Positions 4,497 through 12,580 of a stretch of 45,037 nt of DNA are shown piece after piece. The stretch covers positions 1 through 45,037 of the forward strand of contig CAMBSB010000025.1 in assembly GCA_945870155.1 (NCBI GenBank). The letters run 5' to 3'. The notes beneath the pieces are model-generated. The model saw nothing but the letters and a program-made list of their open reading frames with translations, had not been told where the DNA came from and did no database searches. Made by a program: the position numbers and the translations under genes. How positions within the stretch are numbered: the first letter of the stretch is position 1; every line of letters starts with the position of its first letter. This stretch comes from Paludibacter jiangxiensis. GTDB taxonomy: Bacteria; Bacteroidota; Bacteroidia; Bacteroidales; Paludibacteraceae.

Positions 4497-4533
4497 AAAG
4501 GCTGAATTTCGTAACAGAAGTTCAGCCTTTTTT
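4497..4533 (+). terminator. Rho-independent terminator
   Basis: A 10-bp perfect stem, AAAGGCTGAA (4497-4506) and TTCAGCCTTT (4521-4530), is followed by further Ts, 20 bases after the stop of the KGWDG-repeat gene. A strong intrinsic terminator. Confidence 0.85.
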
Positions 4534-4596: not shown

Positions 4597-4626
4597 TTGT
4601 AATATAAAAAATTTAGTTTATCTTTG
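4597..4626 (+). promoter_or_regulatory. Bacteroidota-type promoter of the ArsM-like gene
   Basis: TTG at 4597-4599, then exactly 19 bases, then TATCTTTG at 4619-4626. This fits the Bacteroidota sigma factor consensus (TTTG-N19-21-TAnnTTTG). It lies 14 bases before the ATG at 4641. That is very tight and favours translation from the ATG at 4665. Confidence 0.8.
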
Positions 4627-4640
4627 CACCGTCAATTAAA

Positions 4641-5288
4641 ATGAATATAAAAAATTACCAAATTATGGAGACTGATGCAATAAACGCGCGTTATACCCAA
4701 TTAAGTGAAACTAGCTGTTGCTTGTCGTGTGGAGGTGCTATAAATCATGCAAAACCACTTTTAGATGAAGTGTGCGTAGACCTTGGAAGTGGTAGAGGAA
4801 ATGATGTGATACGATTAGCTGAACAAGTTGGTGAACAAGGGTTTGTTTATGGTATAGATATTTCGGATGGAATGATAGCGAAAGCCAAGGCAAATTTAGC
4901 CAAGTTTGATGTGGAAAATGCTGAAATTTTAAAAGCTGAATTAGAAAAGCTACCTTTACTGAACGAAAGTGTGAATTTGGTAATTTCAAATTGCACAATT
5001 AATCATGCAAAAGATAAGCAAGCCGTATGGAACGAAATAAATAGAATACTTAAAGTTGGCGGACGATTTGTTGTAAGTGATATTTACGCAACCACCCCAA
5101 TTGCCGACGAATATCGAAATGATCCCGATGCAAATGCTGAATGTTGGGCGGGTGCTGTTACAAAAGACGAATATCTTACAATGCTTGAAACGGCCGGATT
5201 TAAAAATTTGATGGTTTACGAAGAATCGGCTCCATACGAAAAAGGGAAAGCTGAAGTAGCAAGCTGGACAATAGAAGGAAAAAAATAA
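4641..5288 (+). CDS. ArsM-like SAM-dependent methyltransferase
   Basis: A class I methyltransferase of 215 residues. The SAM-binding loop is DLGSGRG (47-53) with the acidic GIDIS at 71-75. The segment VISNCTINHAKDK (Cys118) followed by ECWAGAV (Cys168) matches the two positions where arsenite methyltransferases carry their metalloid-binding cysteines, and an extra CCLSC sits at 26-30. ArsM enzymes methylate trivalent arsenic with SAM and need thiol reductant, usually thioredoxin; three thioredoxins and a reductase lie downstream. The protein is shorter than typical ArsM (about 260 residues or more), so another soft metalloid or thiol substrate is possible. The promoter position suggests that the ATG at 4665 (METDAINARY) may be the used start. 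It is probably the first gene of the redox cluster. Confidence 0.75.
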   Translation: MNIKNYQIMETDAINARYTQLSETSCCLSCGGAINHAKPLLDEVCVDLGSGRGNDVIRLAEQVGEQGFVYGIDISDGMIAKAKANLAKFDVENAEILKAELEKLPLLNESVNLVISNCTINHAKDKQAVWNEINRILKVGGRFVVSDIYATTPIADEYRNDPDANAECWAGAVTKDEYLTMLETAGFKNLMVYEESAPYEKGKAEVASWTIEGKK

Positions 5289-5295
5289 AGAAAAA

Positions 5296-5351
5296 CTACC
5301 CCCAACCCCCTAAAGGGGACTTTAGAGTTCCCCTCTAGGGGTTAAGGGTGG
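5296..5351. repeat. GC-rich interspersed repeat, copy 2 (double)
   Basis: Two back-to-back units: CCCCCAACCCCCTAAAGGGG and TTCCCCTCTAGGGGTTAAGG. They fill the space between the methyltransferase stop and the Cys-rich peptide gene. Confidence 0.8.
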
Positions 5352-5380
5352 TCATTATTCACAACTAAAACAATTATTTA

Positions 5381-5488
5381 ATGAAAAGTGTAGTGAAGAA
5401 AAGTTGCGCATGCAACACCATTTCAGAAGCTAAAGTAGCACAATGTTGCGCTAAAGTTTCAAACATCGTAGCTGGTTGTCACGACTAA
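5381..5488 (+). CDS. 35-residue Cys-rich peptide, possible radical SAM substrate or metal(loid)-binding peptide
   Basis: ATG 5381 to TAA 5486-5488 encodes 35 residues starting MKSVVKKSCACN. Cysteines lie at 9, 11, 22, 23 and 33 and the ending is AGCHD. It sits between an ArsM-like methyltransferase and a radical SAM/SPASM enzyme, the place where RiPP precursor peptides are often found; SPASM radical SAM enzymes commonly modify such peptides. CxC, CC and CH could equally bind a soft metal or metalloid. The composition (14% Cys, balanced Lys/Glu/Asp) is unlike the flanking GC-rich repeats, which supports a real gene. No own promoter is visible, so it is probably co-transcribed with the methyltransferase. 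Whether it is translated is inferred. Confidence 0.55.
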   Translation: MKSVVKKSCACNTISEAKVAQCCAKVSNIVAGCHD

Positions 5489-5493
5489 GTTAC

Positions 5494-5599
5494 ACCCCTA
5501 ACCCCTAAAGGGGAATTTATTCCCTTTTGGAGGTTAGGATTTTGTTTAACCCCTGATCCCTAATGGGGAATAACAAAACTCTTTACATCAGGTTAGGGA
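5494..5599. repeat. GC-rich interspersed repeats, copies 3 and 4
   Basis: ACCCCTAACCCCTAAAGGGG with a distal GGAGGTTAGG arm (5494-5538), then AACCCCTGATCCCTAATGGGG with a distal GGTTAGGGA arm (5548-5599). They fill the space between the peptide gene and the radical SAM start at 5620. An apparent coding extension back to 5563 is repeat sequence. Confidence 0.8.
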
Positions 5600-5619
5600 C
5601 TTTTTTAAAATTCAACAAA

Positions 5620-6999
5620 ATGTCTATTATAACATATAATGCAAGAGACTTCGAATACCTATCACCTAACTCCCCTTCAGGGGTTGGGGGCAGTACTCTT
5701 TCTAAGCACAATATAATTACCCCAATTGCAGATTCGGATGATTTTTTCATTGTAAATCCCTTGCATAAATCGGCCGACATAATCAGTGTCGATGAGCTTA
5801 AAAAGCTGCGTGCCAAACTCGATTTATGGGGTGAATTTACGCAGCGTGGTTATTTGATGGACGAAACCAAAGAAAAAAAAGCATTTAAACTGGCTTATCT
5901 CGATTTTGTTGAAAAGCGCGAAGAAGATGAAACGCAGCTATTTTTTGTTCCAAACTACTCTTGCAACTTTGCATGTTCGTATTGTTATCAGGAAGGGTAT
6001 AATCCGGTACAGAAAGTGGTGAATAATGATGTGGTTGATGCATTCTTTAATTATATAAAAACAGAATTTGCCGGACGCAGAAAATATATTACCGTTTTTG
6101 GCGGTGAGCCACTATTACCGAGCGACAATCAGCGAAATATGCTGACACACTTTATTGCCAAAGCCAACGAAGCTAAACTCGATTTGGCATTTGTAACCAA
6201 TGGTTATACACTGGTAAACTATGTGGATTTATTAAAATCAGCGAGCATTCGCGAAATTCAGGTGACGCTGGATGGAACGCAGGAGGTACATGATGGCCGT
6301 CGTTACCTGAAAGGAAAACAACCTACGTTTGATAAAATTGTGGAAGGAATTGATGCTTGTCTGGCAGCCGGAATCAATATTAACCTCCGCATGGTGATTG
6401 ACAAAGAAAATATAGAAAATTTGGCAGGATTATCACGTTTTGCTATTGATCGTGGCTGGACAAATTCGCCTTATTTTAAAACACAAATTGGGCGCAATTA
6501 CGAACTTCATTTTTGCAACAGCACACCCGAAAAACTTTTCGATCGCGCTACATTGTATCAACATTTATATGAATTACTGAAAGTTCATCCTTATATTGCT
6601 GAGTTTTACAAACCGGCATTTTCGATAGCAAAATATATATCTGAAAATGAGTCACTTCCTACAGCATTGTTCGATTCATGCCCGGCTTGTAAAACCGAAT
6701 GGGCTTTCGACTTTACCGGAACAATTTACTCTTGTACAGCCACTGTAGGCAATAAAGGTGATGAGTTAGGAACTTTTTATCCTACAATTACTAAAAATGA
6801 TGAAGCCATTGAAAGTTGGCAAAATCGCGATATTACGACCATCGAAAAATGCAAAACTTGTGATGTGGCATTGGCTTGTGGAGGTGGTTGTGCTTCGGTA
6901 GCGAAAAATAAATTCGGACATCCAAACAATCCTGATTGCAGACCGGTAAAGGAATTGTTGAGTTTGGGAGCGGCGTATTATTTGAATCCTGCCCCCTAA
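5620..6999 (+). CDS. Radical SAM/SPASM domain protein, candidate peptide maturase
   Basis: 459 residues from ATG 5620; the in-frame extension to 5563 is repeat-derived and was rejected. The radical SAM cluster motif is C115-x3-C119-x2-C122 (SCNFACSYC), with GGEP at 161-164. A C-terminal SPASM region has Cys at 354, 357, 372, 411, 414, 420, 424 and 440 (CKTCDVALACGGGC), enough for two auxiliary [4Fe-4S] clusters. Such enzymes make 5'-deoxyadenosyl radicals and often modify peptides or sulfatase Cys/Ser. No sulfatase is nearby, whereas a 35-residue Cys-rich peptide is encoded just upstream. Residues 14-24 are encoded by a copy of the GC-rich repeat, and the final codons and stop also come from a repeat. 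Substrate unproven. Confidence 0.85.
   Translation: MSIITYNARDFEYLSPNSPSGVGGSTLSKHNIITPIADSDDFFIVNPLHKSADIISVDELKKLRAKLDLWGEFTQRGYLMDETKEKKAFKLAYLDFVEKREEDETQLFFVPNYSCNFACSYCYQEGYNPVQKVVNNDVVDAFFNYIKTEFAGRRKYITVFGGEPLLPSDNQRNMLTHFIAKANEAKLDLAFVTNGYTLVNYVDLLKSASIREIQVTLDGTQEVHDGRRYLKGKQPTFDKIVEGIDACLAAGININLRMVIDKENIENLAGLSRFAIDRGWTNSPYFKTQIGRNYELHFCNSTPEKLFDRATLYQHLYELLKVHPYIAEFYKPAFSIAKYISENESLPTALFDSCPACKTEWAFDFTGTIYSCTATVGNKGDELGTFYPTITKNDEAIESWQNRDITTIEKCKTCDVALACGGGCASVAKNKFGHPNNPDCRPVKELLSLGAAYYLNPAP
5663..5693. repeat. GC-rich repeat inside the radical SAM coding frame
   Basis: ACCTAACTCCCCTTCAGGGG plus TTGGGGG lies in frame near the start of the radical SAM gene and encodes LSPNSPSGVGG (residues 14-24). 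Confidence 0.75.
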
Positions 7000-7017
7000 C
7001 CCCCTAAAGGGGGAATG
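6991..7017. repeat. GC-rich repeat providing the radical SAM stop codon
   Basis: CCCCCTAACCCCCTAAAGGGGG overlaps the 3' end of the radical SAM gene. Its first TAA is the gene's stop, so the last residues (Pro-Ala-Pro) are repeat-encoded. Confidence 0.8.
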
Positions 7018-7101
7018 AGTAAGGTATTTTAAAATCTTTGCTCGTTTAAATATGAATTAAAAAAACACATTATAATTTTTAATTAACAATGCTTGCTTTA
7101 T

Positions 7102-7151
7102 CTCCCCCTCAATATTCCCCCTTCAGGGGGTTAGGGGGCTGGGTTAGGGAG
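7102..7151. repeat. GC-rich double repeat with G-quadruplex motif
   Basis: Two C-rich arms are followed by GGGGG-TTA-GGGGG-CT-GGG-TTA-GGG (7126-7149), four G runs with 2-3-base loops. It ends 13 bases before the start of the thioredoxin-reductase fusion gene, so it would be in that gene's 5' leader. It is nearly the same sequence as the copy at 31451. Confidence 0.8.
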
Positions 7152-7164
7152 CCAATATTTTTTT

Positions 7165-8430
7165 ATGAAAGAAATTAATGCAGCTGATTTTCAGCAAGAA
7201 GTACTTAATGGTGGTAAAGTAGTAGTTGATTTTTATTCAACCGAATGTCCACCTTGCGAAGCCCTGGCACCAAAATTTGATGCTATGGCCGAATTATATG
7301 GCGAAAAAATCAAGTTTGTAAAAATTTTTCGTCAGGGAAACCGTGAGTTGGCTACAGAGTTGGGTGTAAGTTCATCTCCAACATTGTTGTTTTTCGAAAA
7401 CGGAAAACAAATTTTTGATACCATCAGTGGTGGCATTAAAAAATCTGAAATTGTGGAGCGTTTGGATAAAATGCTGACTTCCGAAGAAGTTAAAGTGATA
7501 AAATCCAATCAGAAAAAAACAGTTTCGGAATACGATGTAGCTATTCTGGGCGGCGGTCCTGCCGGATTAACTGCCGGAATTTATCTGGGTCAGGCAAAAA
7601 TTAAAACAGTTTTGATAGACCCTGCTTTGCCTGGCGGTTATATGGGAATTACACATCAGGTTTCAAACTATCCGGGTTTTGAGCAACCACAGCCGGGTTT
7701 TATGTTGGCACACTACATGAGCGAACAGGCAAAACACACCGGCATCGACTTTAAAGTGGCGGTGGATATTACTTCGGTTGATTTGATGAAAAAAGAAATT
7801 GTGATTGACGAATTGGAAACCATCAAAGCTAAAAAAATTATTATTGCTACCGGAACTACACCCAACACTATGAATGCTCCGGGTGAAAGCGAATTCAAAG
7901 GAAAAGGAATTTCGTACTGTGCTACCTGCGATGCTAAATACTTTGTCGACAAAGAAGTTACTGTTATTGGTGGTGGAAATTCGGCAGTGGAAGAAGCATT
8001 GTTTATTACAAAATTTGCCAGCAAAGTAACTATGATTCATCAGTTTGATAAACTCACTGCTAATCAAACCGCTATAGAACAGCTTCAAGCCAATGAAAAA
8101 ATTGTAGTGATGTACGAACATGAACCTCGCAAATTTGAAAAACGTGATGGTAAAATGATTACTATACTCGAAGACTTGAAAACAAAAGAAACCAAAGAAC
8201 TGGCTGCTGATGGTGTTTTTGTGTTTATTGGTTTCAAATCCAATGTGGCAGTTTTGGGCGAACATCTACCTAAAATGAATAATTGGGGTTATATTATTAC
8301 AGATGAAGATATGAAAACAAATTTGCCGGATATTTATGCCGTTGGTGATATTATCAGCAAAAAATACCGTCAGATAACTACTGCAGTTGCCGATGGAACT
8401 ATAGCAGCAATTACTATTTCGAAAGAATGA
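7165..8430 (+). CDS. Thioredoxin-thioredoxin reductase fusion
   Basis: 421 residues. Residues 1-105 are a thioredoxin domain with active site ECPPC (27-31) and the cis-proline at 72; the usual Trp before the first Cys is Glu, and the WCGPC dipeptide is Pro-Pro. Residues 122-421 are a low-molecular-weight thioredoxin reductase with FAD-binding GGGPAG (129-134), redox CATC (C252, C255), NADPH-binding GGGNSA (269-274) and the C-terminal YAVGD FAD motif. The enzyme should pass electrons from NADPH via FAD and CATC to its own thioredoxin domain. The known mycobacterial fusion has the opposite order (reductase first). Placed after an ArsM-like gene and a radical SAM gene, it probably supplies reductant to that pathway. 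Cytoplasmic. Confidence 0.93.
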   Translation: MKEINAADFQQEVLNGGKVVVDFYSTECPPCEALAPKFDAMAELYGEKIKFVKIFRQGNRELATELGVSSSPTLLFFENGKQIFDTISGGIKKSEIVERLDKMLTSEEVKVIKSNQKKTVSEYDVAILGGGPAGLTAGIYLGQAKIKTVLIDPALPGGYMGITHQVSNYPGFEQPQPGFMLAHYMSEQAKHTGIDFKVAVDITSVDLMKKEIVIDELETIKAKKIIIATGTTPNTMNAPGESEFKGKGISYCATCDAKYFVDKEVTVIGGGNSAVEEALFITKFASKVTMIHQFDKLTANQTAIEQLQANEKIVVMYEHEPRKFEKRDGKMITILEDLKTKETKELAADGVFVFIGFKSNVAVLGEHLPKMNNWGYIITDEDMKTNLPDIYAVGDIISKKYRQITTAVADGTIAAITISKE

Positions 8431-8446
8431 CCCCCACCCCTTACAG
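8431..8446. repeat. Partial GC-rich repeat
   Basis: CCCCCACCCC directly after the stop of the fusion gene looks like the left arm of the interspersed repeat without its right arm. Low information content, so only a tentative member. Confidence 0.4.
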
Positions 8447-8534
8447 TCTTAGTCTGGATAAATTGAGTGGAAAATAATATAATTCTATTTGACAGAATAT
8501 CTTAGTGTAACTTTGGGAAATTATTTTGTGTAAC

Positions 8535-8558
8535 TTTGTGTAATAGCTGTTACACAAA
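8535..8558. repeat. Inverted repeat TTTGTGTAA / TTACACAAA
   Basis: A perfect 9-bp inverted repeat with a 6-base spacer lies within a run of related TGTAACTTTG and ACACAAAG words (8508-8592), between the fusion gene and the DUF1847 gene. It could form a hairpin or be an operator. It is not followed by a T run, so it is not a classical terminator. Confidence 0.5.
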
Positions 8559-8674
8559 AAACACAAAGAACACTCAAAATTCACAAAGTTATGATGGATT
8601 TATTCAGTAGAAATACCATCAGTTTTGAAATTATCTTTCTGATTCTTTAATATGTCAAAGTAGGAATAAAAAAT

Positions 8675-9247
8675 ATGATTAAAGATAAGTATATAAAATA
8701 TGAAACTATCTCCAAGTCCCCTTTAGGGGATTTAGGGGTTAATTCAAACGAAACTAACCCAAATTCCCCCCACGGGGGGCTAGGGAGTCGATATTTATAT
8801 TCCGATTCCGACATGAAAATAATGCGGGCAGCTGAAGATGCGTTGCTTATGGGTCAGAACCGTGTAGAAGAATTGAAACTTTTTGCTACAAACTCCGGAG
8901 TAAAGCGCATAGGTATAGCACATTGTGTGGGTATGACGCGTGAAGCCATGGAGCTGAAAGCACGTTTTTCGGATCGGTTTGAAGTTTATACCGTGGATTG
9001 CAAATATGCCAAAATAAAAGGTTCGGAAATGCTTGACGATGAAACTGTAAAAGGGACATCATGCAATCCTGCCGGACAAGCAGATTTTTTGGCTCAGCAT
9101 AATACCGATTTGAATATCTCATTTGGACTTTGTGTAGGACATGATATTCTGTTCAATATGAAATCGAAAGCTCCTGCAACTACTTTAGTGGTTAAAGACC
9201 GTGAGCATAAACACAATCCGTATCAGGAATTTATAATTGAAAAATAA
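8675..9247 (+). CDS. DUF1847 family protein with repeat-encoded N-terminus
   Basis: 190 residues. The core from about residue 47 matches DUF1847: R63VEEL, IGIAHCVGM (Cys84), TVDCK (Cys109), TSCNPAGQAD (Cys130), FGLCVGHD (Cys153), DREHKHNP. Family function is not known; the conserved Cys and His suggest metal or thiol chemistry. Members I recall begin with a Cys-rich segment. Here residues 13-39 are instead encoded by two copies of the GC-rich repeat (SKSPLGDLGV and NSPHGGLGS), so the original N-terminus appears replaced or lost. ATG 8675 is kept as the start because the frame is intact, but ATG 8813 (MKIMRAAED) could be the working one. It fits the redox cluster by position. Confidence 0.8.
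   Translation: MIKDKYIKYETISKSPLGDLGVNSNETNPNSPHGGLGSRYLYSDSDMKIMRAAEDALLMGQNRVEELKLFATNSGVKRIGIAHCVGMTREAMELKARFSDRFEVYTVDCKYAKIKGSEMLDDETVKGTSCNPAGQADFLAQHNTDLNISFGLCVGHDILFNMKSKAPATTLVVKDREHKHNPYQEFIIEK
8716..8786. repeat. Two GC-rich repeats inside the DUF1847 coding frame
   Basis: GTCCCCTTTAGGGGATTTAGG (first 20 bases count; 8716-8741) and TTCCCCCCACGGGGGGCTAG (from 8764) lie in frame without stops and encode residues 14-39 of the DUF1847 protein. Confidence 0.8.
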
Positions 9248-9255
9248 TTGATATT

Positions 9256-9804
9256 ATGAAAATGAAATTTATCATTCCGGTTATTATTCTTTTGTTGTTA
9301 AACTCATGTAAATCAATAGATAAATTAACTCAGTTTGATATTCCATTAAGCCAAACAATTACAATTCCGGCTATTATTCCAATAGATTTGCCATTTGATA
9401 TTCCAACGCCTGACATAATGCTTGATATTGAAACAACTTACGATTTGGATGACAGTGGATATGAACTGAATAATACGAATAAAAATTTAGTTGAGGAGGT
9501 TCTTTTAAAAGAATTAGAATTGACTGTTATTGAGCCTGTTGGAGAAGACTTTAGTCTTTTAAAATCAATAGAAATATACATTTCGGCCGAAGGTGAATCT
9601 GAAGAAAAAGTTGCTTGGTTAAATAGTTTTCCTGAATCAAACAATACTCTTCTGGAGACTTCAAAGGCAAATTTAAAAAGATTTGTTTTAAAAGACAAGA
9701 TAAATCTGAGAGTAAAAACAGTTACTGATGAGATAAATACGCGTGAGTACGATATTAAGATTGATGCTGTTTTTATGGTAAATGCAAAAATATTAGGAAT
9801 TTAA
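9256..9804 (+). CDS. Putative lipoprotein of unknown function
   Basis: 182 residues starting with a lipoprotein signal: Lys-rich n-region, hydrophobic IIPVIILLLL and lipobox LNSC (Cys18). The mature part is beta-rich (repeated IPxxIPIDLPFDIPTPD, then alternating hydrophobic strands). It has no cysteines after the lipidated one and no catalytic motif I recognise. It starts 8 bases after the DUF1847 stop and is followed 20 bases later by the membrane thioredoxin gene, so the three are probably one transcript. Likely anchored in an envelope membrane facing the periplasm. Confidence 0.75.
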   Translation: MKMKFIIPVIILLLLNSCKSIDKLTQFDIPLSQTITIPAIIPIDLPFDIPTPDIMLDIETTYDLDDSGYELNNTNKNLVEEVLLKELELTVIEPVGEDFSLLKSIEIYISAEGESEEKVAWLNSFPESNNTLLETSKANLKRFVLKDKINLRVKTVTDEINTREYDIKIDAVFMVNAKILGI

Positions 9805-9824
9805 ACATTTAGATAAAAATTAAA

Positions 9825-10235
9825 ATGCAAACAGTATTAATAGTAATTGGAGTAATTTTGGGAACGATAGTTTTACTAAACATTTATGCACGAGCAAAAA
9901 TGAAGAATGCTCCTAAAGTTGCAGATAGTGAAAGAATTCTCACATTGACCGACAAAAATTTCAAACAACAAACTAAAGGGAAACTGGTTTTAGTTGATTT
10001 TTGGGCCGAATGGTGTGCTCCTTGCCGCATGATGGCGCCAATTTTAAATGAAGTTTCAAATGAATTACCCGAAGGTAAATATGTTGGGAAAGCCAATATT
10101 GAAACATATCAATCGTTGGCTCAACAATTTAATGTGCGAAGCATTCCAACACTTATTTTATTTCAGGATGGAAAAGAGATTAATAGGTTTGTGGGTGTAA
10201 AAACAAAAGATTTTTTGTTGAAAAATATGAAATAA
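9825..10235 (+). CDS. Membrane-anchored thioredoxin
   Basis: 136 residues. An N-terminal hydrophobic helix (residues about 3-20) is followed by a basic stretch and a classical thioredoxin domain with WCAPC at 63-67 and RSIPT holding the cis-proline. The positive residues after the helix (ARAKMKN) suggest a cytoplasmic thioredoxin domain by the positive-inside rule; the periplasmic alternative cannot be excluded. It probably exchanges disulfides with the neighbouring flavoproteins or the lipoprotein. Confidence 0.88.
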   Translation: MQTVLIVIGVILGTIVLLNIYARAKMKNAPKVADSERILTLTDKNFKQQTKGKLVLVDFWAEWCAPCRMMAPILNEVSNELPEGKYVGKANIETYQSLAQQFNVRSIPTLILFQDGKEINRFVGVKTKDFLLKNMK

Positions 10236-10272
10236 TTTACTATTTGTTTATTTACTATTTACAATTTATTAA

Positions 10273-11439
10273 ATGAAAAAAGTACTCATTTTAGGTGGCG
10301 GTTTTGCTGGTGTTGAGGCAGCCATACGTTTGCAAAAAAGCAAACAATTTGAAGTTAGTTTGGTTTCCGATCGGGATTACTTATTTGTATACCCCATTTC
10401 AATTTGGGTACCTGTTAGAACGCTTAGTTTTGAGAATGCCAAGCTTCCTTTAGAGCAAATACAGAAAAAACATGGATTTAAACTGATATTTGACAAAGTA
10501 ACAGCTATTCAGGCCGCCGAAAATACGGTTCAACTTGAAACTCAAACATTATCATACGATTATCTTGTTGTGGCTTTCGGATCGGGAAAAATGCAGCCCA
10601 AAGGAATTGAATATACCACTACCATTTGTGGCCGTCCGGAACAAACCCTGGAATTGCGCGATAAATTAGATGCTTTGATAGCTAAAGGTAGCGGAAAAAT
10701 AGCCATTGGTTTTGGTGGAAATCCCAAAGATAAAACCACAGTGCGCGGTGGTCCCGGTTTTGAATTGATATTCAATATTCATCATTACCTGAAGAAAAAA
10801 GGGATACGCAAAAACTTTGAACTGACTATGTTTGCACCTATGCCTGAGCCGGGCGCACGTATGGGAAAAAATGCCATGAAAGCCGTATATAAAATGTTTT
10901 TAGCATTGAATATTCAAAGCCGTTTTGGTAAAAAAATTACTGAATTTCAGGAAGATGGTGTTGTATTTGAAGATGAGTCGAAGCTTGTTTCGGATTTAAT
11001 CATGTTTATTCCGGCAGGTGCAGGTTCGCCTATTCTTAAAAATTCCGATTTGCCACTTTCAGAAGCAGGTTTTGTGAAAATAAACAACTTCAATCAGGTG
11101 GAAGAGTTTCCGAATGTTTTCGCCATTGGCGATGCTGCTGCATACGAAGGTCCTGAATGGACAGCCAAACAAGGACATATTGCTGAAATCATGGGTGCTA
11201 ATGCTGCTTATAATATTATCCAAATTAATAATGAATCTGTTAAACGTAAAGGATATCAAGAACACTTGAGTATTATTTGCGTTATGGATATGGGTAACGG
11301 AGCTGCTTTTGTTTATCGCGACAGCAAAAGAGAATTTATGATTCCGATGCCAATTTTTGGTCACTGGATGAAACAAGCCTGGGGACTTTATGCCAAGTGG
11401 ACAAAACTTGGTTTATTTCCAAGATTACCCGGAATGTAA
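10273..11439 (+). CDS. SQR-like FAD-dependent NAD(P)/disulfide oxidoreductase
   Basis: 388 residues of the two-dinucleotide-binding-domain flavoprotein family. GGGFAGVEAA (8-17) binds FAD, YDYLVVAFGS (about 95-104) is typical, and NVFAIGDAAA (281-290) is the C-terminal FAD motif. The length and the C-terminal amphipathic tail (residues 360-388, Trp/Phe/Leu/Lys-rich, as used for membrane binding) resemble sulfide:quinone reductase and NDH-2. Only two Cys are present (119 and 336). The position where SQR has its middle catalytic Cys reads RGGPG (158-162), so ordinary sulfide oxidation through a Cys pair plus flavin-linked Cys is doubtful. Substrate unknown; persulfide or quinone reduction are possibilities. 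Flanked by thioredoxin genes. Confidence 0.8.
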   Translation: MKKVLILGGGFAGVEAAIRLQKSKQFEVSLVSDRDYLFVYPISIWVPVRTLSFENAKLPLEQIQKKHGFKLIFDKVTAIQAAENTVQLETQTLSYDYLVVAFGSGKMQPKGIEYTTTICGRPEQTLELRDKLDALIAKGSGKIAIGFGGNPKDKTTVRGGPGFELIFNIHHYLKKKGIRKNFELTMFAPMPEPGARMGKNAMKAVYKMFLALNIQSRFGKKITEFQEDGVVFEDESKLVSDLIMFIPAGAGSPILKNSDLPLSEAGFVKINNFNQVEEFPNVFAIGDAAAYEGPEWTAKQGHIAEIMGANAAYNIIQINNESVKRKGYQEHLSIICVMDMGNGAAFVYRDSKREFMIPMPIFGHWMKQAWGLYAKWTKLGLFPRLPGM

Positions 11440-11473
11440 AACATTGAATATTATGTAAGTATTACAATTAATC

Positions 11474-11500
11474 AGCCCCCCTAGCCCCCTAAAGGGGGAA
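11474..11500. repeat. GC-rich interspersed repeat copy
   Basis: GCCCCCCTAGCCCCCTAAAG followed by GGGG, in the 271-bp gap before the soluble thioredoxin gene. The rest of the gap is AT-rich without clear signals. Confidence 0.8.
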
Positions 11501-11710
11501 TTCTAGTGCTTTATTAAATATTATATCAATCATTAAAATTCAATTTATGACATTTTAAGTTTCTTTTTAATAAGAAGTTTAATCAAAATTAATGTTCAGT
11601 ACTATTTGAGTAGTATTGAATTTTACGAATTATCATTACTTAGTTTTAGAAATAAAATACCCTTTCAATATTAAACAATAAAAATTCAAATAACAAAAAT
11701 TACAATTAAA

Positions 11711-12073
11711 ATGGGAACAATTCATTTAACCAAAGCAGATTTTTTATCTAAAGTAGCTAATTACGAAACAAATCCAACAGAGTGGAAGTACGAAGGAGAT
11801 AAACCTTGTATCATCGATTTTTATGCCTCCTGGTGTGCTCCTTGTAAAACAGTAGCACCAATTTTGGAAGATTTAGCCAAAGAATACGAAGGACAAATTT
11901 ATATATACAAAGTTGATACAGAAGCAGAACAAGAATTAGCCGGTGCTTTTGGAATTCGCAGTATACCAACCATACTTTTTTGTCCAATGGAAGGTGCTCC
12001 ACAAATGGCACAGGGTGCTTTACCAAAGGATACTTTCAAAAAAGCAATTGCTGATGTTTTGTTGAATATTTAA
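11711..12073 (+). CDS. Thioredoxin (cytoplasmic)
   Basis: 120 residues, no signal peptide. WCAPC at 41-45 and the cis-proline loop RSIPT. It has an N-terminal extension (TKADFLSKVANYETNPTEWKY) that differs from E. coli TrxA but is common in Bacteroidota thioredoxins. It is the first of three closely packed genes (2-base and 1-base gaps), so co-translated with the thioredoxin-fold and two-helix proteins. A likely general disulfide reductase using the fusion reductase at 7165 or another one. Confidence 0.9.
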   Translation: MGTIHLTKADFLSKVANYETNPTEWKYEGDKPCIIDFYASWCAPCKTVAPILEDLAKEYEGQIYIYKVDTEAEQELAGAFGIRSIPTILFCPMEGAPQMAQGALPKDTFKKAIADVLLNI

Positions 12074-12075
12074 GT

Positions 12076-12345
12076 ATGGATAAGTACAATCAAGTAAGCC
12101 TTGAAATGTTTTATACGCTTAGCTATCCAAATTGCAAATTACTGCAACGCTTACTTGACGAAACACTACCCGAATTTGGTGAAAAATTTGTACTCAAGAA
12201 AACAATGGCCAATGGACCTTTGGGTATGATTAAAACTTTGAAAATGGGCATTCACACTGTGCCTACATTGTTAATTAACAACGAAATAGCATTTAAGCAA
12301 GTACCTACAAAACAAGAATTAATAAACAAACTCAAATTTTACTAA
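12076..12345 (+). CDS. Small thioredoxin-fold protein with a single active-site Cys
   Basis: 89 residues. The fold is suggested by FYTLSYPNCKLLQRLLDE, where CxxC is reduced to YPNC (Cys20 only), and by HTVPTLLINN with the cis-proline at 63. It has the size and pattern of glutaredoxin-like or mini-thioredoxin proteins. With only the second Cys it cannot do ordinary dithiol exchange; a monothiol role, or binding of a thiol, cluster or metal, is more likely. It starts 2 bases after the thioredoxin stop. Confidence 0.7.
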   Translation: MDKYNQVSLEMFYTLSYPNCKLLQRLLDETLPEFGEKFVLKKTMANGPLGMIKTLKMGIHTVPTLLINNEIAFKQVPTKQELINKLKFY

Positions 12346-12346
12346 A

Positions 12347-12580
12347 ATGGAAGAAAAGAAAAAACTACGTTGTCCACTGGGTGTTCCCGGAGGAATTTTA
12401 GCTACATTAATTGGTTTAGCAGGAATTGTTTTAAATAGTATTGATTTTAATTTATCGGGATTGTTGTTTTCAATAGCTTTATTTCTGATAGGCGGACCAT
12501 TTGTTCGTATAACCATGATGGTACATTCTGCTAATGACAGATTGGACGAACTGGAACGTAAAATGGACGAAAAGAAATAG
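12347..12580 (+). CDS. Small two-helix membrane protein of unknown function
   Basis: 77 residues. Two hydrophobic helices (about 12-31 and 35-57) are followed by a charged tail (NDRLDELERKMDEKK) that should form a short coiled coil. One Cys at residue 9 (LRCPLGVPGG). No family recognised. It begins 1 base after the preceding stop, so it is translationally linked to the two thioredoxin-fold genes and may anchor or partner them. Confidence 0.65.
   Translation: MEEKKKLRCPLGVPGGILATLIGLAGIVLNSIDFNLSGLLFSIALFLIGGPFVRITMMVHSANDRLDELERKMDEKK

Follow-up and report, generated by a model that had tools for sequence, protein, structure and literature searches.

Organization of the locus

The whole stretch of DNA analysed here, hereafter called the window, comprises 45,037 nucleotides of Paludibacter jiangxiensis (contig 25 of a genome of 5.79 Mb) and carries a block of eleven genes located wholly on the + strand. 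The first four of them form a conserved cassette composed of an ArsM-like methyltransferase, a peptide of 35 residues, a radical S-adenosylmethionine (SAM) enzyme with a SPASM domain and a fusion of thioredoxin with thioredoxin reductase (Trx-TrxR). The SAM-dependent methyltransferase (207 residues) is encoded at 4665..5288, its open reading frame (ORF) opening at 4641, from which the residues C30, C118, H122 and C168 are numbered. The gene for the precursor-like cysteine peptide, recognized by sequence conservation, occupies 5381..5488 and specifies the leader MKSVVKK and the core AQCCAKVSNIVAGCHD. It is followed by the radical SAM/SPASM enzyme of the CteB type at 5695..6999 (ORF opening at 5563; PF04055, 1.6e-20) and by the fusion at 7165..8430, which gave thioredoxin and Pyr_redox_2 matches and has a CPPC motif in its thioredoxin part and a CATC motif in its reductase part.

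A sequence-only reading of this DNA had interpreted all eleven genes as one block, possibly devoted to the modification or methylation of a soft metalloid or a cysteine peptide, with its own thioredoxin-type electron supply. The ORF positions and the strand given there were correct throughout, and so was its list of eleven protein types (the lipobox of a lipoprotein and the helices of a two-helix protein were recognized by eye). The idea of a dedicated pathway with its own electron supply fits the four-gene core well; it was not upheld for the wider block.

Linkage and distribution of the core genes

In a set of 60 genomes, the own one included, the radical SAM enzyme was matched at E <1e-130 in 24, and one more genome contained a fragment of it at a contig end. 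The peptide was encoded near the enzyme in 24 of these 25 loci, the 25th being truncated by the contig end. A scan of GTDB genomes yielded 353 stretches encoding a relative of the radical SAM enzyme, and the best 80 loci were examined for matches at E 1e-5 (for the peptide, for a sequence pattern) anywhere on the stretch. These loci overlap with the 25 of the 60-genome set and the two sets were not summed. The Trx-TrxR fusion was found on the same stretch in 79 of the 80 loci, the peptide in 78 and the methyltransferase in 75. The genomes with the peptide-free stretches, L091 and L092, encode the peptide on another contig, beside the methyltransferase; the five loci free of the methyltransferase are these two and L105, L115 and L121, which begin at contig ends. 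The four core genes are linked in relatives of the window and their homologues are not scattered.

Among 395 genomes of the window's phylum (own included) the radical SAM enzyme was matched at E <1e-180 in six, and the peptide was present in the same six, as was the methyltransferase at E 6.3e-101 or better. This co-occurrence led to rejection of a chance neighbourhood. The next-best methyltransferase in the 395 genomes scored 2e-50 and some match at 1e-25 was present in 192 of them; because of the gap between 6.3e-101 and 2e-50 the cassette methyltransferase constitutes, in the first phylum, a score class apart from canonical ArsM. A further methyltransferase match at E 1e-25 or better was found in four of the six cassette genomes, and three such second enzymes among the matches listed fall at 5e-45 to 4e-43, in the canonical range. 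Distances were compared between the three enzymes, and the correlations were 0.86-0.92 over 86 loci and 0.83-0.93 over 18 loci of a second phylum. No plasmid-borne cassette was found, the five plasmid records that match the radical SAM enzyme doing so at 25-30% identity only.

Occurrence in a second phylum

The second phylum was entered via locus L131 of genome G457, the record of which is labelled Spirochaetales, the name of the phylum being unproved. The 16S rRNA gene was sought in seven genomes (the own one and six of the second phylum) and recovered from one, G601; among relatives of the window it was recovered from two of seven. Between G601 and G015, a relative of the window from the same genus, 16S identity is 74%, and the genomes therefore belong to different phyla.

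The peptide was present in 25 of 149 second-phylum genomes, in one copy each. The stretches around it gave tblastn matches to the methyltransferase and the radical SAM enzyme in 25 of 25 cases and to the fusion in 22, the three fusion-free loci (L170, L174 and L189) lying at contig ends; counted as called ORFs, the numbers were 22, 23 and 22 of 25, respectively. The methyltransferases are 34-66% and the radical SAM enzymes 35-57% identical to their window counterparts. Taking both sets of loci, a conserved precursor-like peptide is encoded on the same stretch as the radical SAM enzyme in 78 of 80 (L102, described below, included) and 25 of 25.

The four genes mostly stand alone in the second phylum. 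Of the neighbour families sought there, DUF1847, thioredoxin and DUF6132 were each met once in the 25 loci and the others in none, and among the proteins encoded downstream in the window matches were confined to DUF1847 and a thioredoxin, with one each. Since the sulfur-type neighbours are nearly absent from this phylum, they look like a Bacteroidota addition.

The 35-residue peptide

The short ORF, which the sequence-only reading had taken for a gene, proved genuine, as its core is invariant in protein and its codons change synonymously across 78 loci. Every copy found terminates with CC(A/S/T)K.(S/T)....GCHD, and the 75 distinct peptides of the 78 loci all have GCHD followed by the stop codon. 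Within the last 16 residues in these loci A, C, C, A, K, S, G, C, H and D are invariant, each written with two to four synonymous codons, and a Q in the same region is replaced by L in two. Second-phylum peptides allow S or T in place of the A after CC, and T in place of the S. Over the 78 loci the N-terminus hardly departs from M(K/R)S(L/V)(V/I)KK, and the middle varies in both sequence and length. No family meaningfully matching the peptide was found in Pfam or NCBIfam.

A pair of cysteines was seen either in the peptide leader or in the C-terminal tail of the methyltransferase. In 97 loci with both proteins it was present in the tail only in 39, in the leader only in 33, in both in 2 and in neither in 23, hence neither pair is needed. 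The alternation is not claimed as a relay, because the FastTree tree displays only 7 and 11 changes, with which an independent-pairs test cannot reach significance.

The radical SAM/SPASM enzyme

The first 44 codons of the ORF are not reached by most orthologue matches and are mostly not conserved. The window protein was aligned with 73 orthologues picked for diversity from 102. In all 74 rows the CX3CX2C motif (C90, C94 and C97) is invariant, and so are C329, G342, C347, C386, C389, C395, C399 and C415, which correspond to the seven-cysteine pattern of SPASM domains, CX9-15GX4C-CX2CX5CX3C-C. Among the matches listed, the best score against NCBIfam maturases of ribosomally synthesized and post-translationally modified peptides (RiPPs) was 132.9 bits with a cut-off of 525 (TIGR04463).

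A structure model built from the 74 sequences replaced a poor one based on 14 (predicted local distance difference test, pLDDT, 62.9). The whole-enzyme model contains three predicted strands and helices at residues 7-75, where a leader-binding, RRE-like domain may lie, and CteB was aligned over model residues 3-433.

In the 395-genome set G110 and G444 encode a more distant radical SAM enzyme (E about 1e-65) beside other cysteine peptides; neither the cassette peptide nor a methyltransferase in the cassette range was found in these two genomes. Such distant enzymes suggest a sister family of peptide maturases. Cysteine-containing peptides of 52-61 residues adjoin a sister radical SAM enzyme at L150:7023-8752 and L151:5579-7196, with a membrane-peptidase-like protein nearby (by eye); this is possibly another unnamed RiPP system.

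The ArsM-like methyltransferase

Translation may start at 4665, as 13 aligned orthologues mostly begin there. The best ArsM model for the protein was NF008823, with 182.7 bits, below the cut-off of 263. In an alignment with CmArsM and AS3MT, C118 and C168, which the sequence-only reading had assigned to metalloid-binding positions, do align with metalloid-binding cysteines of both proteins, and C30, which it had not named, is the third such residue: C30, C118 and C168 correspond to C72, C174 and C224 of CmArsM, described as As-binding sites in the available text of PMC3877260. Conservation was assessed on 101 rows, one from the window and one, the best match, from each of 100 loci. C118 and C168 are present in all of them and C30 in all 99 ungapped at that position; C26, C27 and C45 are less constant, being retained in 91, 91 and 85 rows, respectively.

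The cassette enzymes differ from canonical ArsM in several respects. Position 122 is H in 101 of 101 cassette sequences and L in 18 of 18 canonical relatives, the spacing between the CC pair and the C30 motif is some 25-35 residues shorter in the cassette group (in the sequences printed), and the chain has 207-239 residues in comparison to 241-375. A single branch with support 99 parts 100 cassette sequences from the 18 canonical ones, one short row having been left out. The score gap between the two groups holds only in the first phylum, since divergent second-phylum members (139-262 bits) overlap the canonical range; these were told apart by place, H122 and the tree. We infer that the active site of the cassette enzymes is more open, as would suit a peptide or a peptide-bound substrate.

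A gene for a protein of about 146 residues, which carries the zinc ribbon of IS1595-type transposases (PF12760), lies upstream of the methyltransferase in 31 of the 80 loci (e.g. L059:8441-8881). In 30 of these loci it runs on the opposite strand; none was seen in the window. This protein could be a domesticated regulator.

The Trx-TrxR fusion and the optional neighbours

Matches to the fusion covered at least 390 residues in 99 of 106 cases. Both CPPC and CATC were present in 85 of these 99, and 10 further fusions differ by a single residue in one motif.

Downstream of the fusion, on the + strand, are genes for a DUF1847 protein (8675..9247; 6.7e-34, the Pfam match beginning at about 8804), a lipoprotein without family match (9256..9804; lipobox by eye), a membrane-anchored thioredoxin (9825..10235; TIGR01068 above cut-off), an SQR/FCSD-like flavoprotein (10273..11439; Pyr_redox_2, 1.9e-25), a soluble thioredoxin (11711..12073; TIGR01068 above cut-off), a one-Cys thioredoxin-fold protein of 89 residues (12076..12345; TIGR00411 at 4e-9, below cut-off) and a small two-helix membrane protein (12347..12580; helices by eye). 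The sequence-only reading had counted all of them to one block, which did not hold: in the 80 loci the membrane-thioredoxin query matched in 40, DUF1847 in 33, the soluble thioredoxin in 26, the SQR-like protein in 22 (at any identity; 14 in its ORF cluster), the lipoprotein in 3 and the one-Cys and two-helix proteins in 2 each. These genes are lineage-specific, optional neighbours, and the view of the whole block as one pathway was rejected.

A DUF302 protein was encoded near the fusion at L085:12673-13080 and in 31 other of the 80 loci, many of them from Bacteroidota, where DUF6132, rhodanese, YgaP-like and sulfur-transport proteins are also recurrent neighbours. In L091, L092 and L102 the pair of radical SAM enzyme and fusion stands away from the methyltransferase and the peptide and adjoins DUF6132; in L102 a YeeE/YedE sulfur transporter-like protein (by eye) is beside the pair.

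Between the preceding gene and the cassette a terminator-like hairpin was identified by consensus match (4497..4530, + strand), with a stem of 14 pairs followed by a T run. The start of the block, placed by the sequence-only reading at 4597, coincides with a promoter-like match, TTG-N18-TATCTTTG (4597..4626, + strand; consensus match only), to the consensus of the Bacteroidota type. It is weak evidence, because the whole + strand contains 4 such matches and shuffled sequences 2.8. A family of C-rich imperfect palindromes of the CCCCTAACCCCCTAAAGGGG type is represented at 5291-5350, 5486-5517, 5672-5690, 6985-7016, 7114-7145, 8714-8785 and 11470-11501; its members are dispersed between genes, and copies also occur where the radical SAM and DUF1847 ORFs are extended at the N-terminus.

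A RiPP-type pathway as the favoured explanation

The partnership of the peptide with three enzymes, the types of these enzymes and their conserved residues can be read directly from the DNA. With moderate confidence, the core is best explained as a RiPP-type, that is peptide-modifying, system, the product of which would be a modified cysteine peptide, perhaps S-methylated or metalloid-carrying. The radical SAM enzyme would grip the leader (MKSLVKK) via its N-terminal domain and would then modify the core CC(A)K.S....GCHD, a thioether or another Cys-derived link being the most likely change. The ArsM-like enzyme would use SAM to methylate a soft nucleophile in the peptide core. This could be one of the peptide's own Cys thiolates; it could also be a trivalent metalloid that the three peptide cysteines hold and pass on to the three-Cys site of the enzyme. 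The fusion would keep the cysteines of peptide and enzyme reduced at the expense of NAD(P)H. The course would be leader binding, radical modification, methylation and reduction, this sequence of steps being provisional. AS3MT is known to methylate its own cysteines, and its arsenic methylation in vitro is aided by glutathione, thioredoxin and thioredoxin reductase (available text of PMC9013690).

No exporter or leader protease was prominent among the recurrent ORF clusters, not every one of which was identified, so the product probably stays in the cell and acts there as a thiol, sulfane-sulfur or metalloid ligand. Bacteroidota copies of the cassette often adjoin sulfide/persulfide-type enzymes.

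Several observations weigh against a RiPP-type system of this kind. The radical SAM enzyme lies apart from the peptide in L091, L092 and L102 (by 9.7 kb in the last), and the fusion is kilobases distant in L079, L080 and L084. The correlation of enzyme distances partly reflects shared species history. The radical SAM enzyme falls far below the cut-off for every NCBIfam RiPP-maturase family among the matches listed (25 of 72), the thioredoxin components left the Cys automethylation of AS3MT unraised in the work reported in the available text of PMC9013690, and the argument for an intracellular role is drawn from which ORF clusters recur.

A metalloid pathway is a tentative alternative with a minor share of the probability. 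Here the peptide would be a carrier or scaffold for a soft metalloid such as As(III); once bound, the metalloid would be methylated by the ArsM-like enzyme and joined to carbon by the radical SAM enzyme, to give an organometalloid peptide or a detoxified product. This alternative agrees with the retention of the three As(III)-binding cysteines of ArsM, with the three invariant cysteines and the histidine of the peptide core and with the pairing of ArsM and a radical SAM enzyme in the pathways to arsinothricin and arsenosugar (PMC8552651, available text). The genomic surroundings speak against it: all HTH_5 (ArsR) and SBF (Acr3 superfamily) matches of the own genome are on contigs other than that of the window, and the ArsR- and Acr3-family queries from the own genome matched only 2 of the 80 loci each in a rough test, which for ArsR rests on L217 and L218, the L216 query ORF having been another protein. 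An ordinary arsenic-resistance operon is unsupported, as ArsR/Acr3-type genes are not beside the methyltransferase. Moreover, arsenic methylation may already be served in the four of six cassette genomes that have a further methyltransferase, three of these enzymes among the matches listed falling in the canonical range, and the cassette radical SAM enzyme is of the SPASM type, unlike ArsL with probably one cluster (PMC8552651, available text).

Somewhat less probable still is that maturation yields a small peptide carrier of the thiol or persulfide type, which Trx-TrxR recycles and which has a glutathione-like role in sulfide-rich anoxic habitats. The constancy of the fusion, missing only at contig ends (present in 79 of the 80 loci and in 22 of the 25), and the Bacteroidota neighbours, namely rhodanese, SQR, a flavoprotein-rhodanese fusion, YgaP-like, sulfur-transport, OsmC and DUF302 proteins, are consistent with such a carrier; on the other hand, those neighbours are almost absent from the second phylum, and the methyltransferase would have no obvious role unless it capped one thiol. 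That the genes are adjacent merely as redox genes and the small ORF is spurious is very improbable, for although the downstream genes differ between genomes, this is contradicted by the co-occurrence in the same 6 of 395 genomes, the presence in two phyla and the invariant peptide core with synonymous changes.

A bolder reading deserves mention as a speculative prospect with limited odds: an ArsM-chemistry RiPP pathway, shared by two phyla, in which the radical SAM enzyme, the ArsM-derived methyltransferase and the dedicated Trx-TrxR would turn the invariant CC...GCHD core of the ribosomal peptide into an organometalloid (e.g. arsenic-carbon or metalloid-methyl) or S-methylated cofactor-like product.

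Significance and comparison with known systems

No description of this four-gene system was found in literature searches and, as far as the literature searched reaches, the core represents a variant of radical SAM RiPP systems that has not been described before. In a survey of 1,136 Bacteroidales genomes the families without rSAM-containing areas were underrepresented ones, e.g. Paludibacteraceae (PMC10352776, available text). Four genes and one nearly invariant core region of 16 residues provide a ready test bed for ArsM-type action on a peptide. If metalloid or S-methyl chemistry does take place, arsenic enzymology would be linked with peptide natural products and bacteria of two phyla would have a new peptide ligand or cofactor.

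With ArsM and AS3MT the cassette methyltransferase shares the methyltransferase fold, as judged from sequence, and the three As-binding cysteines; it differs in being shorter, in the change of L to H at position 122, in scoring below the NF008823 cut-off and in forming its own branch (support 99). A radical SAM enzyme also works with an ArsM in arsQML (arsinothricin) and ArsM/ArsS (arsenosugar), but those pairs are presented without a peptide in the available text of PMC8552651, and ArsL is described there with a single cluster, whereas the cassette enzyme has ten invariant cluster-type cysteines. S-methyltransferases are known but rare in RiPP maturation, PtyS and LopH being examples of such S-methylation; in the available text of the review (PMC11285071) words that begin with arsen are absent, so ArsM-type enzymes are not treated there under that name.

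The cassette also resembles CteB/SCIFF and other ranthipeptide and sactipeptide maturases, a group that also takes in PapB, Clo7bot, CefB and TIGR04463: the CX3CX2C and seven-Cys SPASM motifs and a Cys-rich peptide gene nearby are common to all, and the predicted structure of the cassette enzyme aligns with CteB from end to end. The cassette differs from these systems in scores far under the cut-offs and in a peptide without an NCBIfam model, and its radical SAM enzyme has an ArsM-like methyltransferase and a Trx-TrxR fusion as partners.

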